Shown here: positions 57,486 through 64,000 of the stretch, in pieces
How the letters are laid out: the number at the start of each line of letters is the position of its first letter
How positions within the stretch are numbered: position 1 is the first letter of the stretch
Source of the DNA: Arthrobacter sp. CJ23
GTDB lineage: Bacteria > Actinomycetota > Actinomycetes > Actinomycetales > Micrococcaceae
Assembly (NCBI RefSeq): GCF_024741795.1
Contig: NZ_CP102950.1
Location: forward strand, 2,046,001-2,110,000
Direction of reading: 5' to 3'
DNA length: 64,000 nt
Program-made: the position numbers and the translations under genes
Notes under the pieces: model-generated
What the model was told of the DNA's origin: nothing
What the model saw: the letters and a program-made list of their open reading frames with translations, nothing else
The model's database searches: none

Positions 57486-58019
57486 TCAGGCGGAGTTCGA
57501 CGACGGCGCGCGGCCGCCGTCGTCGTTCGCGTTCCGGCCGGACGCATCACCCAGCCGCCCGGCCGCCTCCTGTTGGATGCGCGCGGCTTTGGACGAATAG
57601 TCCGCGATGACGCGCAGTTCTTCGTCGCTGTACCCCTCCAGGAGACTCGCCATGCCGCCCATGAAGTCGACGAAGTGGGGCATTGCAGCCATGACCTGGT
57701 CCCCGACCAACTCGATCAGGACCTTCCGTTTATCGCCCTCGTGCCGGACCCGGCGTGCCACACCCTTGCTCTCGAGCCGTTGCATCAATCCCGTGACCGA
57801 GGCCGGAGCCAGCCCGGAATGTTCGCCGAATTCCCCCGCCGTCATGGGTCCGAAGCGCAGGAGGATGTCGATCGCCTTACCCTCGGTTGCGGACAGTCCG
57901 CGCAACTCGGACAGCTTTGTGTGGAACATGACGGCCGCCGTCGAAAGCTCCCGTCCCGAGGCAAAGACCGCCTCAAGCAAATCCTGGCGCTGAGTGTTGG
58001 GGCTCGGTTGGGTCTCCAT
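57486..58019 (-). CDS. MarR-family regulator
   Basis: A 177-residue MarR protein. The winged helix is visible in GPMTAGEFGEHSGLAPASVT, then GLMQRLESKGVARRVRHEGD, the wing being RHEGDKRKV. Helices at both ends form the dimer. It is divergent from the FAD monooxygenase at 58127 and probably represses it until a phenolic or drug-like ligand binds. A palindrome lies between them at 58085. Confidence 0.85.
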   Translation of the reverse strand: METQPSPNTQRQDLLEAVFASGRELSTAAVMFHTKLSELRGLSATEGKAIDILLRFGPMTAGEFGEHSGLAPASVTGLMQRLESKGVARRVRHEGDKRKVLIELVGDQVMAAMPHFVDFMGGMASLLEGYSDEELRVIADYSSKAARIQQEAAGRLGDASGRNANDDGGRAPSSNSA

Positions 58020-58126: not shown

Positions 58127-59392
58127 ATGCTGAACTGTCTCGTCATCGGGTCCGGAATCGCCGGACTCGCCACCGCCATCTCGCTGCAGAAAGCCGGCCA
58201 TCACGCCACTGTCTTCGAGGCCTACAGTGAGCCCTCGGACGGCGTCGGCGGCTTCCTCACCGTGGCCATCAATGGCTTCGATGCGCTGGAAACCCTCGGG
58301 CTCAAGGGCGCAGCCGCCGATCTGGGCTTCAGCACCCCGCAGATGTCCATGTATCTGGGTAGCACCGGGAAGCACCTCATCGACTTTGACTACGGCGGAT
58401 CCCTCTCTGACGGCACCACCGCCCGCACCATGACGCGTTCCGAGCTGTATGGCATGTTCCGCGAGGCGGCCAGCCGCCGCGGGATCCGCATCGAGTATGG
58501 CAAGCGGCTCGCTACGGTGAAGGAAGCGCCCGACGGCGTCACGGCCGTTTTCGCGGACGGCACCTCCGCGCGTGGAGACCTGGTGGTAGGCGCCGACGGC
58601 CTCCACTCGGCCGTGCGGCCGCTGATCGACCCCGCATCCCCGGCTCCGCGCAACATCCCCCTGCTCAACACCGGCGGGATCGTCGAAGCCGGGTTGCTCC
58701 CGGCAGAGCTCGTGGACGTCGAGCCGGGGCGCATGAAGATGGTCTTCGGCAAGCGCTGCTTCTATTGCTACATGCAGGACCCGGAGGGCAGGATCTGGTG
58801 GTTTGCCAACCCCCTGCAGCGGTCATCGGAGGATCCGGCCACCTTGGACCACAGCGCCCGCAAGTCCTGGCTGACTCACCTCGTGGCCGGGGACCGGACC
58901 CCCATGGCCAGGATCATCGCCGCTACTGACAGCATCGTCCGGCCGTACACCACCTCCGACTTTCCGAGCATTCCCAGCTGGCATCGAGGGAGCCTCGTGC
59001 TGGTGGGAGACGCTGCCCACGCTGCATCGCCGTCGTCCGGGCAGGGTGCCTCCATGGCCATCGAAGACGCCGTCGTGCTCGGGCGATCGCTTCGAGGCAT
59101 CTCGTCCGACGAGATCCCCGGCGCCCTGTCCCGCTATGAGAAAGAACGCAGGAGCCGGGCGGAATTGGTGGTCGAATGGGGCCGCCGGAATGCCGCCCCG
59201 AAGATCCGCGGCCAACTCAAGAGACTCTTCGAAGACCTGGTGTTGAAGGCTGTCTTCCGCTCACTCGCCCGGAAGACAGCCGACAACTTCGACTGGGTCT
59301 ACCGCCACCACATCGACTGGGATGCACCGGTGGTTCCCAGCGAGTCCGCTGCTCCCCGCCGGCCCGCTCGCCTCACACGTTCTGGAAAGTAA
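58127..59392 (+). CDS. FAD-dependent monooxygenase (TetX/aromatic hydroxylase type)
   Basis: A 421-residue class A flavoprotein monooxygenase. IGSGIAGLATAISLQKAGH is the FAD ADP-binding loop, VVGADGLHSAVR the DG motif, and LVGDAAHAASPSSGQGASMA (~290) the GD motif that binds the FAD ribityl chain. It hydroxylates an aromatic or polycyclic substrate using NAD(P)H and oxygen. Tetracycline-modifying enzymes share this layout, but many act on natural phenols. GGGGAG precedes the ATG. Control by the facing MarR protein is likely. Confidence 0.85.
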   Translation: MLNCLVIGSGIAGLATAISLQKAGHHATVFEAYSEPSDGVGGFLTVAINGFDALETLGLKGAAADLGFSTPQMSMYLGSTGKHLIDFDYGGSLSDGTTARTMTRSELYGMFREAASRRGIRIEYGKRLATVKEAPDGVTAVFADGTSARGDLVVGADGLHSAVRPLIDPASPAPRNIPLLNTGGIVEAGLLPAELVDVEPGRMKMVFGKRCFYCYMQDPEGRIWWFANPLQRSSEDPATLDHSARKSWLTHLVAGDRTPMARIIAATDSIVRPYTTSDFPSIPSWHRGSLVLVGDAAHAASPSSGQGASMAIEDAVVLGRSLRGISSDEIPGALSRYEKERRSRAELVVEWGRRNAAPKIRGQLKRLFEDLVLKAVFRSLARKTADNFDWVYRHHIDWDAPVVPSESAAPRRPARLTRSGK

Positions 59393-59585
59393 CCCTGCCG
59401 GCGTTGGCCCCGGACTGGGCTTCTCAGGACTGGGCGCCAGTGCGGAGTAATCGGGTAGAGAGCGGAGGGGTTGCCTGTTTGCGTCCGCGAGCCCCCATTT
59501 CATGTTTTCCACTCAAGTCAACCTGAATACCCTGTGTACCCTCCGACAGCGTCGGGCCGTGCGTCTTGGGGTAATGCGCGAGGGG

Positions 59586-59726
59586 TCAGATGAACGTCAG
59601 GCCGACCCAGGCAGTGGTGACGGGCGTGACGCCACCAAAGACGGCCCTGAACTCTTCCTCAAGTAGGGCACTCACGGACAGTTCGTCGGTATTCTCGTTG
59701 TTTTCTTCAAAGCGTGAGCCAGACAT
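59586..59726 (-). CDS. 46-residue peptide with double-glycine-type leader (possible RiPP/bacteriocin precursor)
   Basis: A perfect AAGGAG site six bases before the ATG supports expression. Residues 1-32 are acidic and end LLEEEFRAVFGG. Relative to Gly-Gly at -2/-1 there are Leu at -12, Glu at -8, Phe at -7 and Val at -4, the pattern of leaders cut by C39-type exporter peptidases. The remaining 14 residues, VTPVTTAWVGLTFI, are hydrophobic with four Thr and no Cys. It could be a modified peptide precursor, an unmodified bacteriocin or signal, or just a small protein. No exporter or modifying enzyme is recognised beside it; the upstream genes on the same strand are the metabolic operon. Confidence 0.5.
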   Translation of the reverse strand: MSGSRFEENNENTDELSVSALLEEEFRAVFGGVTPVTTAWVGLTFI

Positions 59727-59807
59727 CGTCGTCTCCTTAGAGTTGCATGTATAGCGGAGCACCCGCAGTGTCCGCGAGACATGCGGTGTGGATTGAGTGT
59801 TTGACGT

Positions 59808-60023
59808 TTATGTGGCCAATTCGGAGATCGTCCCGTGTGGAACGGAGTGGGAAAGCTCCACGGTGAACGTCTGGTGGTCATGTCGGGTCACCAGCACTCC
59901 GCGCCCGGGTTCCTTGAGAGCTTCCCGGATCGCTCCCTCGACGGCTCGGTCGAGCTTGTTCTCGAGCTCCCTGCGGTGGGTGATCCTGACCTCTATGGCA
60001 TAGCGGATCGTCGCGTCAATCAT
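59808..60023 (-). CDS. Small hypothetical protein, paralogue family member 3
   Basis: A 71-residue protein with AAGGA six bases before the ATG at 60023. GVLVTRHDHQTFTVELSHSV followed by PHGT matches members at 30062 and 54943. The N-terminal helix is highly charged (HRRELENKLDRAVEGAIREA). It is 89 bases downstream of the oxidoreductase and 81 bases upstream of the 46-residue peptide. Function unknown. Confidence 0.7.
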   Translation of the reverse strand: MIDATIRYAIEVRITHRRELENKLDRAVEGAIREALKEPGRGVLVTRHDHQTFTVELSHSVPHGTISELAT

Positions 60024-60112
60024 TGGGGTCCTTCTTCTGGCCTTGGTTTTTCTCATGGTCGTTGGTCTGGTGGGTATTGCTCCCTCGAACGGGAAGGGCT
60101 GACTTGCCGGCA

Positions 60113-61051
60113 TCATGGGGTTAGAACGAGCTTGCTGGGGGCGCCCTGTTGCTGCAGCTCCCAAGCCCGCTGGCAATCAGCGAGCGGGAGGGTCATCGTA
60201 TCGACGGTCAACGCGCCGGTGGCTGCAAGCCCGGTCAGTTTCAGGTAAGCGTCGCGGCGGACTTGAGCCGGCGGATCGACGTGGGCGAACCCGAGGATCT
60301 CCAGGCGTGTTCCGCGGATGAGGCTGGCCGGCAGCTGGATGGTTGCCGCGGCGGACTGGCCGATCTGGATGTGACGGGCGCCGCGGGCGGCGACGTGCAT
60401 GGCGGCCAGGGCGGGGTCGCCCCAGACCGGGTCGATGATGACGTCGAAGCCGCGGTCGCCTGCGACGTTGCGGAAGGCGCCCACCAAGTCGGCGTCCGGT
60501 GTGATCGTGACGGTCGCGTCGGCGCCCCGCTCAATGGAAAGGGCCAGCCGTTCGGGGTCCCTGTCTGCGGCGACCACCCTGCCCGCGCCGAGGGCTTTGG
60601 CGAGCTGGACGGCAACCGACCCGAGCGCGCCGGTCGCGCCGAGCACCAGCACATTCTGGCCGGGCTGCAGCTTCGCCCGCCAGGTGAGGGCGAGCCACGC
60701 GGCCAGTCCAGTGTTGCCAAGTGCGGCCGCGGTGACGTCGTCAACCCCGTCGGCAAGGTCGAGCAGATCATCCTCGGCAACGACTGTGCGTTCCGCCCAG
60801 GAGCCGTGAGGCGCCACCGGTGACGTGAAGAAGACCCTGCGGCCAGTGCCGGTCCGGCCTACTCCGTCGGCCCCGATCACGTAGGGCAGTGTTCCCGGGT
60901 CGCCGTAGGCGCCGGATGCCCGGGCAAGGTCGAGGTGGTGGACGCCGGCCGCGGTGATGTCGACGACAACATGGCCGGCGTCGGGCTGCGGGTCCGAAAA
61001 ATCTGCGTAGCTTGGCGTGGTTCCGGTATGGGTCAGAACGGCGGCTTTCAT
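60113..61051 (-). CDS. NADPH:quinone oxidoreductase/alcohol dehydrogenase-like MDR protein
   Basis: A 312-residue medium-chain dehydrogenase/reductase without zinc ligands (no GHE-x2-G motif). The NADPH-binding loop is VLVLGATGALGSVAVQLAKA (~145). MKAAVLTHTG is the usual start. It probably reduces an enone, quinone or enal. ATG at 61051 has AAGGAA; a 128-residue extension through the gap is rejected. It lies 65 bases after the FAH gene on the same strand. Confidence 0.85.
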   Translation of the reverse strand: MKAAVLTHTGTTPSYADFSDPQPDAGHVVVDITAAGVHHLDLARASGAYGDPGTLPYVIGADGVGRTGTGRRVFFTSPVAPHGSWAERTVVAEDDLLDLADGVDDVTAAALGNTGLAAWLALTWRAKLQPGQNVLVLGATGALGSVAVQLAKALGAGRVVAADRDPERLALSIERGADATVTITPDADLVGAFRNVAGDRGFDVIIDPVWGDPALAAMHVAARGARHIQIGQSAAATIQLPASLIRGTRLEILGFAHVDPPAQVRRDAYLKLTGLAATGALTVDTMTLPLADCQRAWELQQQGAPSKLVLTP

Positions 61052-61116: not shown

Positions 61117-62055
61117 TCAGCCCGGTCGGTCTGTCTCGGCGGAGATGATCTGCACGCTGATTGTTCCGAGGCCGCTGATCCGCCCCTGGAGCTGGTCGCC
61201 GACGTGCATCCAGGTCCCGGTGCTGAGCCCGACACCGGCGGGAGTTCCGGTGAGCACGACGTCGCCCGGTTCGAGGGTCACGTGCTCGCTGATCCGGGAG
61301 ACAAGCTCGGGCACCGACCAGATCAGGTCGGAGGTGTTGGCATCCTGCCGGAGCTCGCCGTTGAGCCAAAACTGCAGCTGCAGGCTGGTGTCGTCGATGA
61401 AGCGTGCGGGTACGATGCCCGGCCCGAGCGGACAACTGTCGTCGAAGACCTTGCCGCCGAAGAGGTCAAACTTGACGAGGTGCTTGGGATGGCGCTGCCA
61501 GTCCCGCGCCGACAGGTCCAAGGCGATCGTGTAACCGGCGATGTGCTCACGAGCCCGGTCCACCGGGATGTGCCGGCCTCGCCGGCCGATGACGAACGCC
61601 AGCTCAAGCTCGTAGTCGAACTTCTCGGTCTGGGTGGGGTAGTGGACGGATCCACCCTGGCCGACGAGGGTGGTGGTGGGCGGTTTGAGGAAGAAGACCG
61701 GGATGTTGTCCTCTTTCGAGAAGTCCGTGTGGCCACCGTCGTTGAGGACGTGGTCGTAGAAGTTGGCGCCGGTGCAGATGACCTTGTTTGGGTACTGCAG
61801 CGGTGTTAGCCAGTCCTCGGGCTTTGCCGGCTCGGCGACCGGCCCGACTGGACTGCTCAAGAGGGCGTCGACGGCGGCAAGCAGCAGGGGCTCGGCGGTC
61901 TCCCAGTTGGCGAAGACGGTCATCAGCCCGGCCGCCGGATTGGCGGCCAGTATCTCGGGCGCGAGGTCGGTGAGCCTGTACAGGCGGCCGTCAGGGAGCC
62001 GGAGCACGGGGGTGGGCGTTCCGTCGATCCGGACGGTGGACAGGGAGAACGTCAC
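61117..62055 (-). CDS. FAH-family hydrolase/isomerase (fumarylacetoacetase-like)
   Basis: A 312-residue FAH-fold protein. FDYELELAFVIGRRGRHI (~145) carries metal-binding Glu residues, ALDLSARDWQ (~178) the Asp, and the end GDVVLTGTPAGVG (~270) is the family signature. It would cleave an acylpyruvate-type C-C bond or isomerise a dienoate, as in aromatic or sugar-acid breakdown. GTG at 62055 overlaps the kinase stop by four bases (GTGA), so it is coupled to the kinase. Substrate unknown. Confidence 0.85.
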   Translation of the reverse strand: MTFSLSTVRIDGTPTPVLRLPDGRLYRLTDLAPEILAANPAAGLMTVFANWETAEPLLLAAVDALLSSPVGPVAEPAKPEDWLTPLQYPNKVICTGANFYDHVLNDGGHTDFSKEDNIPVFFLKPPTTTLVGQGGSVHYPTQTEKFDYELELAFVIGRRGRHIPVDRAREHIAGYTIALDLSARDWQRHPKHLVKFDLFGGKVFDDSCPLGPGIVPARFIDDTSLQLQFWLNGELRQDANTSDLIWSVPELVSRISEHVTLEPGDVVLTGTPAGVGLSTGTWMHVGDQLQGRISGLGTISVQIISAETDRPG

Positions 62056-63098
62056 AGGGTCTGCTCCTTGATGTGCGTCGTGCCGGCGACGGCCGCACCG
62101 GGCGTCAGCATCCACTCGTCGACGATCGAGTCGACGGTCGATCCGGGCCGGGACATCAGGGCCCGGGCAAGGTCGCGCACCTGGCCGCGTTGCGGGGGTG
62201 CCAGGTACTCCACCGGGGAAGCGCCGTCGACGCGGGCCAGGGCGAGCAGCGGCAGCAGGGCCGCGACCCGGCCCATCAGGTCTGCCGCCGGCTCCCAGTC
62301 AATGTGCCGGGCGTAGCCATCCAGCAGCATGCGGACAGAGCGGTGCAGCCGCGCGGTGTGGTCGGGCACGATGATCGCCTTGAGCAGCAGGTGGTTCAGG
62401 CAGAACGCGACGTCGAACGCAGGGTCACCGAACCAGCCGCACTCCGCGTCGAGCAGTACCGGGCCATGCGGACCGAGAAGAATGTTCTTGGGGCTGACGT
62501 CGCCGTGCACCACCGTCAGATGCGTGCCGGCGGTCACCGCGGCGAGCTCCTCGATCCGGTCGGCCAGATCGGGGTTGGCACGGGCGGTGACCCGGAAATA
62601 GGGCTCGATGCGAAGGGCGCTGAAGTTGTCGTCGGTGGCGAACAGGTCCGCGGCCGAGGGGTCCTTGGCGCTCGCCGAGTGCAGCCGGCCGACCAGGTCG
62701 CCGACGGCGTGCGCGGCGGCCGGGTCTACCTGCCCGGCAAGGAGCTGGTCCTTCCAGACCGGGAAGTCCTCGGGCGGGAGGAATTGCATGGCGAACAGTC
62801 CGTCTTGCTCGTCGTGGGCGAGCACTTCGGGGACCTGCGTGGGAGCGACGGCGGCGGCAAACTGCAGCCACTCGTACTCCACCCGGTTGCGGGAGATGGG
62901 CGCGTGCCATTCCTGCGTCACCTTCAGCCGGGCCAACGCCCCTTTCACGCAAAGTGTTCGCCCAGGCAGGGACACCTGCCACAGGTCCGAGCTCACGCCA
63001 CCGGTCAAGGGGGTAAGTATTGCCTGTTCCTCTGGCTGCATCAGCTCGTGGCGGCGCAGGAAATCCTGCACGCGGGTCCGGGGCTCGGCGCCGTTCAT
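62052..63098 (-). CDS. Aminoglycoside phosphotransferase-fold small-molecule kinase
   Basis: A 348-residue APH/choline-kinase-fold protein. The ATP loop Lys is in TLCVKGALARLKV (~50), the catalytic loop is VVHGDVSPKNILLG (~198), and the metal site is VLLDAECGWFGDPAFDVAF (~213). It phosphorylates a small alcohol. It overlaps both neighbours by four bases, enolase upstream and FAH downstream, so its product is likely an intermediate of the same pathway. Resistance to an antibiotic is less likely in this setting. Confidence 0.8.
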   Translation of the reverse strand: MNGAEPRTRVQDFLRRHELMQPEEQAILTPLTGGVSSDLWQVSLPGRTLCVKGALARLKVTQEWHAPISRNRVEYEWLQFAAAVAPTQVPEVLAHDEQDGLFAMQFLPPEDFPVWKDQLLAGQVDPAAAHAVGDLVGRLHSASAKDPSAADLFATDDNFSALRIEPYFRVTARANPDLADRIEELAAVTAGTHLTVVHGDVSPKNILLGPHGPVLLDAECGWFGDPAFDVAFCLNHLLLKAIIVPDHTARLHRSVRMLLDGYARHIDWEPAADLMGRVAALLPLLALARVDGASPVEYLAPPQRGQVRDLARALMSRPGSTVDSIVDEWMLTPGAAVAGTTHIKEQTL

Positions 63099-64000
63099 CG
63101 GCCACCGTCAGCGGACAAGGCCAATGTGGGCAGATTCCTGAAGCCGAGCGTCGAGTCCTCGGCTATCCGCACCAGCTGGTTGTACTTCGCGAGTCGCTCG
63201 GAGTTCCGCACGGATCCGATCTTAATCTGCCCGGCTGCGGTGCCGACAGCCAAGTCCGCGAGGAAGTCGTCCTCGGTCTCCCCGGATCGTGCAGACACTA
63301 CAGGGGCGTAACCCGCGGCGCGCGCCTCGGCGACCACATCGAGGGTGCCCGTCAGGGTGCCGTTCTGATTGACCTTGACCAGGACCCCGTTTGCGACTCC
63401 GCGGGAGATGCCGTCGGCGAGCCGTTGGCTATTTGTGGTGAAGAGGTCGTCGCCGATCAACCTGACCCGATGGCCGAGGCGTTTGGTCAGCGTCTGCCAG
63501 CCAGCCCAGTCATCCTCGTCGAGCGGGTCTTCGATGGAGACGATCGCGAAACGGTCGACCCAGGACGAAACCATGTCGATCATGTCCGCGGTGCTGAGAT
63601 GCCGTCCCTGCCGGCGCAGGTGGTAGTCGCCGGCGTTGCTGTCGTACAGGGAGGTCGCAGCCACGTCGATGGCGATGGCTATGTCAGTGCCGGGCTGCAG
63701 GCCGGCGGCTTCAATGGATTGGGTGATGAGTTCGAGGGCCTCCTCGCCGGTGCGGCAGCCCGGGCTCAGGCCGCCCTCGTCGGCCAGCAGGGTCGGCAGC
63801 CCCCGTTCGGCGCAGAGGCCAGCGGCAGCCGCGCGGACGCGGGAGGTGAGCTGGATCGCTTCGAGTGCGGAGGTGGCCGCGACCGGTACGGCCAGGAAAT
63901 CCTGGACGTCCATACCGCGGCCGGCGTGGAGGCCGCCGGAAAGGATGTTGACCATCGGCATCGGCAGCACCGGCTCGTCGACGCCGGCGAGTTGAGCGAT
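63095..64000 (-). CDS. Enolase paralogue, C-terminal part (runs off the window)
   Basis: The 301 residues seen cover the barrel of an enolase; about 120 N-terminal residues lie beyond the edge. Metal ligands are present in IAIDVAATSLYD, SIEDPLDEDDW and LIGDDLFTTN. The base Lys is in LVKVNQNGTLT, the acid Glu in LADEGGLSPG, and the late Lys in GQIKIGSV. The usual SHRSGETED loop is SARSGETED, losing a substrate-phosphate His, and VNQIG is VNQNG. Together with its kinase partner this suggests a specialised enolase for another phosphorylated hydroxyacid rather than the glycolytic enzyme. Confidence 0.8.
   Translation of the reverse strand: MAQLAGVDEPVLPMPMVNILSGGLHAGRGMDVQDFLAVPVAATSALEAIQLTSRVRAAAAGLCAERGLPTLLADEGGLSPGCRTGEEALELITQSIEAAGLQPGTDIAIAIDVAATSLYDSNAGDYHLRRQGRHLSTADMIDMVSSWVDRFAIVSIEDPLDEDDWAGWQTLTKRLGHRVRLIGDDLFTTNSQRLADGISRGVANGVLVKVNQNGTLTGTLDVVAEARAAGYAPVVSARSGETEDDFLADLAVGTAAGQIKIGSVRNSERLAKYNQLVRIAEDSTLGFRNLPTLALSADGGR

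Follow-up and report, generated by a model that had tools for sequence, protein, structure and literature searches.

On the minus strand of the 64,000-nucleotide stretch of Arthrobacter sp. CJ23 analysed here (the window), positions 59586-59726 hold a gene of 46 codons plus stop that is real, conserved and under purifying selection. The encoded protein is MSGSRFEENNENTDELSVSALLEEEFRAVFGGVTPVTTAWVGLTFI, laid out as a helix at about residues 9-30 that ends in FGG and then a tail marked by Pro, Trp and Gly-Leu. We give about an even chance to its being a small protein that acts inside the cell, in an accessory or regulatory capacity, in the catabolism of aromatic amines (indole/anthranilate).

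The small gene and its relatives

A sequence-only reading of this DNA had pointed to an overlooked 46-residue minus-strand ORF with a perfect AAGGAG, and both are present as described, the Shine-Dalgarno sequence (59733..59738, minus strand) being 6 nt 5′ of the ATG. With the protein as query the gene was detected in 22 genomes, its own included, among 206 of the genus, and with the homologue from plasmid pAL1 as query the same 22 genomes of the genus were found. One of them (G169) has two copies. The set of loci considered below comprises 23 genome loci and pAL1, 24 in all, with 23 intact copies; the 12 that were located in named assemblies belong to strains of Arthrobacter and Pseudarthrobacter. 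In the copy of another carrier (L024/L022, G170:C16:12193-12329) the reading frame is disrupted, and this copy adjoins a PaaX-like gene and retains both the palindrome and the hairpin described further on.

A frame so short, and missing from 184 of the 206 genomes of the genus, might be supposed to be open by chance, but conservation refutes this and leaves it a negligible probability. All 23 intact copies, that of pAL1 included, are exactly 46 codons long, and an AGGAG or GGGAG core lies 5′ of the start codon at all 24 loci. The median dN/dS is 0.24 for 210 of 253 pairs, with the remaining 43 either outside the dS range of 0.05-2 or not computable. Third codon positions hold 5377 of the 10307 differences among copies, and mean dN is below mean dS in the N-terminus, the helix and the tail alike. 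Identity of the other intact copies to the window protein is 48-83%. When the 22 intact genome copies are aligned (A1), 13 residues do not vary (M1, E8, E24, E25, F26, V29, F30, G32, P35, V36, W40, G42 and L43); at some of these the pAL1 protein deviates.

No family in Pfam, NCBIfam or PHROG matches the 46-residue protein, and Rfam has no match within positions 59400-60100 of the window. The best match in a PDB profile search, to villin headpiece fragments (E 0.73), is taken as chance, and the AlphaFold model, with helices at 9-30 and 36-44, is of low confidence (mean pLDDT 62, pTM 0.30). An alignment search of 395 genomes sampled from the family, some of them of the same genus and with at most 18 candidates scored per genome, gave nine weak partial matches (E 0.0016-0.1) beyond the known copies among the candidates scored. 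Eight of the nine (L059-L063 and L065-L067) proved on translation to be 11-30-residue pieces in unrelated frames and were rejected. In a sample of 396 genomes from the order, the gene's own genome alone matched at E <= 0.001. Phage records held no credible relative, and the sole relative in plasmid records is that on pAL1.

The pAL1 copy (WP_162486283.1 / ARUE_RS24355; NC_009453.1, Arthrobacter sp. Rue61a) is annotated ‘hypothetical protein’. Like the window copy, to which it is 49% identical, it has 46 residues and the same succession of leader, GG and tail, but it is flanked by RidA and a PaaX-family gene in a plasmid region for anthranilate/quinaldine catabolism (the type-A context described below), whereas the window copy is chromosomal, lies behind another operon and is without the palindrome. 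Full-text searching, the coverage of which did not extend to the pAL1 sequencing paper, found no description of the small protein.

The double-glycine leader

The window translation confirms the leader EEEFRAVFGG, with Leu at -12, Glu at -8, Phe at -7, Val at -4 and Gly at -2 and -1, from which processing by a C39 peptidase had been proposed. A 2019 eLife structure paper (PMC6363468) describes recognition by C39 proteases as involving hydrophobic residues at -4, -7 and -12, Glu at -8 and then GG, and a protease pocket that narrows near the cleavage site, which is why the residues there are small (PMC6363468). The window copy has all of these features in common with C39/PCAT-processed double-glycine peptides, and its 14-residue hydrophobic tail is pheromone-like. 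Only this ORF, in the six frames of the 64-kb window, matches the 12-residue double-glycine pattern L...E[LFMIV]..[VILM].G[GAS], which was composed post hoc, after the ORF had been seen.

Despite this fit to the recognition positions reported for C39 proteases (PMC6363468), it is very improbable that the product is a double-glycine leader peptide that is cut at GG and exported, as bacteriocin or pheromone, by a C39-type ABC transporter. Peptidase_C39 (PF03412) was found in none of the 22 carriers, while control genomes were positive in 8 of 14 cases. In contrast to peptides processed in this way, the homologues conserve GG, GA or GS at -2/-1 incompletely. Homologues of unvarying length to the stop codon do exist, but GG itself is kept in only 20 of the 23 intact copies; the other three (L034, L036 and L038) have Glu or Asp at -2, group together as one branch (99/95 support) and retain the length of the ORF, the ribosome-binding site and the palindrome at the promoter. 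The tail had been noted to be free of Cys, and it is in the window copy but not across the homologues, three of which (L042-L044) have Cys. The small protein is probably not a C39 substrate.

A modified RiPP precursor, whether by a lanthipeptide, YcaO or SPASM route, was also considered and rejected, the modification enzymes being absent or rare in carriers: LANC_like was found in 0 of 22, YcaO in four and SPASM in one. The window's own genome has none of these three, nor Peptidase_C39. The sequence-only reading had allowed for a chance match of the leader, which is the best account of the protease motif but not of the gene. The resemblance of the window leader is real, and we interpret it as an amphipathic helix with a Gly cap. 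A near-perfect double-glycine leader is possible in genomes with no detectable C39 peptidase, and this counsels caution in mining for bacteriocins by motif only.

Gene neighbourhoods and the upstream region

Neighbourhoods were compared over about 20 kb around 22 loci and in the window, where only 4.3 kb is available upstream of the gene, with heuristic gene calls (ORFs chosen by length and GC3, then clustered). In 16 of the 23 genome loci, here termed type A, the next clustered gene downstream encodes a PaaX-like regulator of 286-296 aa. Such a gene is likewise directly downstream on pAL1, and its product is 72-83% identical to those of the 16 type-A loci. The one representative scanned has the Pfam domains PaaX, PaaX_M and PaaX_C and falls under the NCBIfam PaaX cut-off. 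StyA-like monooxygenases, one of them fused to a flavin reductase, are present in 15 of the 23 loci. A TPP enzyme occurs in 16, and eight have a PF04199 cyclase, which would be isatin-hydrolase-like. Taken together, the type-A enzymes suggest a breakdown of indole to anthranilate. For pAL1 the anthranilate CoA-thioester pathway has been published. A 2-aminobenzoyl-CoA monooxygenase/reductase-type gene (E <= 1e-200) is found in 22 of 22 carriers versus 58 of 184 non-carriers (Fisher p = 1e-10, uncorrected for shared ancestry); in the window's genome it is about 2 Mb from the small gene.

L034 and L038 have the small gene beside a StyA-type cluster without the type-A regulator (PaaX-2), in L032 and L035 an anthranilate-type set precedes it, and no gene cluster is common to all 23 neighbourhoods. 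The frequent adjacency and the shared palindrome could mean that the protein is a dedicated small partner, antirepressor or corepressor, of the PaaX-like repressor next to it, but PaaX-2 (at least 74% identity) is missing from six of the 22 carriers (G000, G103, G104, G135, G136 and G161), the best PaaX relatives of which are 44-50% identical, and two genomes (G185 and G176) have PaaX-2 without the small gene; such a partnership is unlikely. Another possibility is a regulatory upstream ORF, or leader peptide, the translation of which controls paaX downstream. Its location directly 5′ of paaX, at short spacing, in 16 of the 23 genome loci and the possible hairpin 5′ of it would suit this role, against which stand the seven of 23 loci, the window included, with no PaaX-2 gene downstream, the constraint on residues in all three thirds of the protein and the retention of paaX alone in G185 and G176. 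We consider it improbable. The lack of a universal neighbour argues against both a pure leader ORF and an obligate PaaX partner, because of those six carriers and two genomes. In G185 (L077) the sequence upstream of the PaaX-like gene has an apparent short remnant of the start of the small gene followed by unrelated sequence, and looks like a loss in that lineage with paaX kept.

MeqR2, the PaaX-type repressor of pAL1, is taken here to bind TGACGNNCGTcA and to be released by anthraniloyl-CoA, and this motif was used as a lead. Within 150 nt upstream of the small gene it does not occur in exact form at any of the 24 loci; with one mismatch it occurs at 17. A relaxed pattern, T[GT]ACGNNCGT[CA]A, chosen after the one-mismatch matches had been seen, is present within 150 nt upstream at 18 of the 24 loci, against a mean of 0.01 and a maximum of 1/24 in 200 first-order shuffles. 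Each of the 18 has a TTTACGNNCGT[CA]A copy 85-100 nt 5′ of the start, and this copy overlaps the -35 position of a putative promoter the -10 element of which is TATAAA- or ATATAC-like in most. At L037, L039 and on pAL1 the palindrome is upstream of RidA, which precedes the small gene. It is absent from the vicinity of the gene solely at three loci, termed type B, one of which is the window, where the 150 nt upstream contain no copy.

The MeqR2 motif does occur in exact form further away, at L034 (+7052, +8574 and +8761 from the ORF start) and L038 (+7073, +8596 and +8804), in and upstream of monooxygenase/SDR genes; these exact copies suggest that the cluster there shares the operator. The relatives thus resemble the MeqR2/PaaX-type regulation of quinaldine and anthranilate degradation in having a PaaX-like gene and a palindrome one base off the MeqR2 operator as taken here, but the likeness extends to most relatives and not to the window copy, and regulation here is predicted. 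By analogy, PaaX may control the small gene. Two PaaX-related regulators of quinaldine degradation are mentioned in the literature (PMC3534580).

In the 5′UTR a hairpin, GCATGT...GCGGACAC/GTGCTCCGC...ACATGC, is likely at 59745..59784 (minus strand), 5′ of the ribosome-binding site. Single-sequence folding gives a similar hairpin clearly in 15 of 23 genome loci, the window and L028 included, and approximately in L036 and L038. It is not the minimum-energy fold in L026, where its pairs are possible, or in L027, L032, L035, L037 and L039; L032 and L035 are without the 3′ half, and L037 and L039 have RidA coding sequence at that place. On the upstream alignment A2 (21 loci, with L037, L039 and pAL1 excluded) 76.5% of cells are paired in the window fold, and covariation is 0.130 versus 0.086 ± 0.011 for shuffles, 0 of 500 of which reach it, and at most 0.095 for slid registers. 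Two-sided changes affect five pairs, a number reached in 43 of 500 shuffles, and are more frequent when the register is slid by -1 (nine pairs and 12 cells versus five and 11), and RNAalifold on A2 predicted no pairs. As pair counting favours the hairpin by covariation score, though not by every measure, and RNAalifold does not predict it, it is graded only likely.

In type B (the window, L026 and L028) the gene follows, on the same strand, genes for an enolase, a kinase, an FAH protein, an oxidoreductase and a protein of 70 aa. In the window these minus-strand genes encode an enolase-like protein (63095..64000, cut by the window's end), an APH-family phosphotransferase (62052..63098), a fumarylacetoacetate-hydrolase family protein (61117..62115, the ORF as listed), a zinc-type alcohol dehydrogenase/quinone oxidoreductase (60113..61042, the stretch scanned) and, directly upstream of the small gene, the protein of about 70 aa (59808..60023), which has no Pfam match. 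Every one of the 22 carriers searched contains relatives of this last protein (1 to 11 matches in each genome, E <= 0.001), which belongs to an unnamed multicopy family of small proteins of the genus. On the other side a FAD_binding_3 monooxygenase gene (58127-59392, plus strand), convergent with the small gene, is beside a MarR-type regulator gene (57486-58019, minus strand), possibly as another aromatic catabolic unit.

Just upstream of what remains of the -10 region, and immediately past the stop codon that ends the 70-aa gene, the window ceases to resemble type A. At this junction (59785..59810, minus strand) the -10 remnant abuts that stop codon, with neither a -35 box nor a PaaX-type palindrome; a consensus scan of window positions 59300-60200 found no sigma-70-like site. 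The type-B copies (the window, G161 and the second copy of G169) are still under purifying selection, with pairwise dN/dS values of 0.24, 0.25 and 0.11. One relocation is suggested by the grouping of the type-B copies as one branch, with modest support (88/84), near the type-A copy of G169; the direction of change would be from type A to type B.

A proposed role and its alternatives

The accessory or regulatory role in aromatic-amine catabolism that we favour would work as follows. In most relatives the gene, directly before that for the PaaX-like repressor, stands at the head of the unit or after RidA and would be transcribed from the promoter with the PaaX-type palindrome over its -35 region. 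Since the palindrome overlaps that region, induction by a pathway intermediate is expected: a CoA-thioester, anthraniloyl-CoA by analogy with MeqR2, would release the repressor and so induce the small gene. Protection or tuning of the message is a possible function of the hairpin that precedes the ribosome-binding site. In the window, in G161 and in the second copy of G169, the 5′UTR and ORF appear to have been relocated behind a different operon, and as these copies have neither palindrome nor -35 box, they are probably expressed by read-through from it. The protein would be intracellular, as there is no C39 peptidase and no signal peptide apparent by eye, and its role accessory.

Alternatively, the product could be an exported or matured signalling peptide, dependent on a protease or exporter other than C39, that reports indole/anthranilate breakdown to neighbours. 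The leader-like helix with its conserved hydrophobic tail would be in keeping with this, as would the control by a catabolite-responsive repressor that the promoter palindrome suggests. No Sec-type signal is apparent by eye, however, the GG site is not invariant, carriers have few RiPP modification enzymes and the 23 neighbourhoods do not have one gene cluster in common; we regard such a peptide as unlikely. There is a slim chance of a new kind of catabolite-controlled signalling peptide in Arthrobacter, with a 46-residue precursor that a PaaX-type switch turns on during indole/anthranilate breakdown and that undergoes trimming and release independently of C39. If so, neighbours would learn from it of the consumption of indole, which is an interspecies signal in its own right.

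With an intracellular accessory or regulatory protein as the preferred reading, comparison is apt with small proteins such as SgrT and AcrZ, which regulate or assist catabolic and transport operons and are like the present one in size, operon setting and conservation from end to end. In Arthrobacter, a previously undescribed small gene under selection lies in catabolic regions of the anthranilate/quinaldine and indole types, and the prediction is that it would be induced together with the PaaX-controlled genes.
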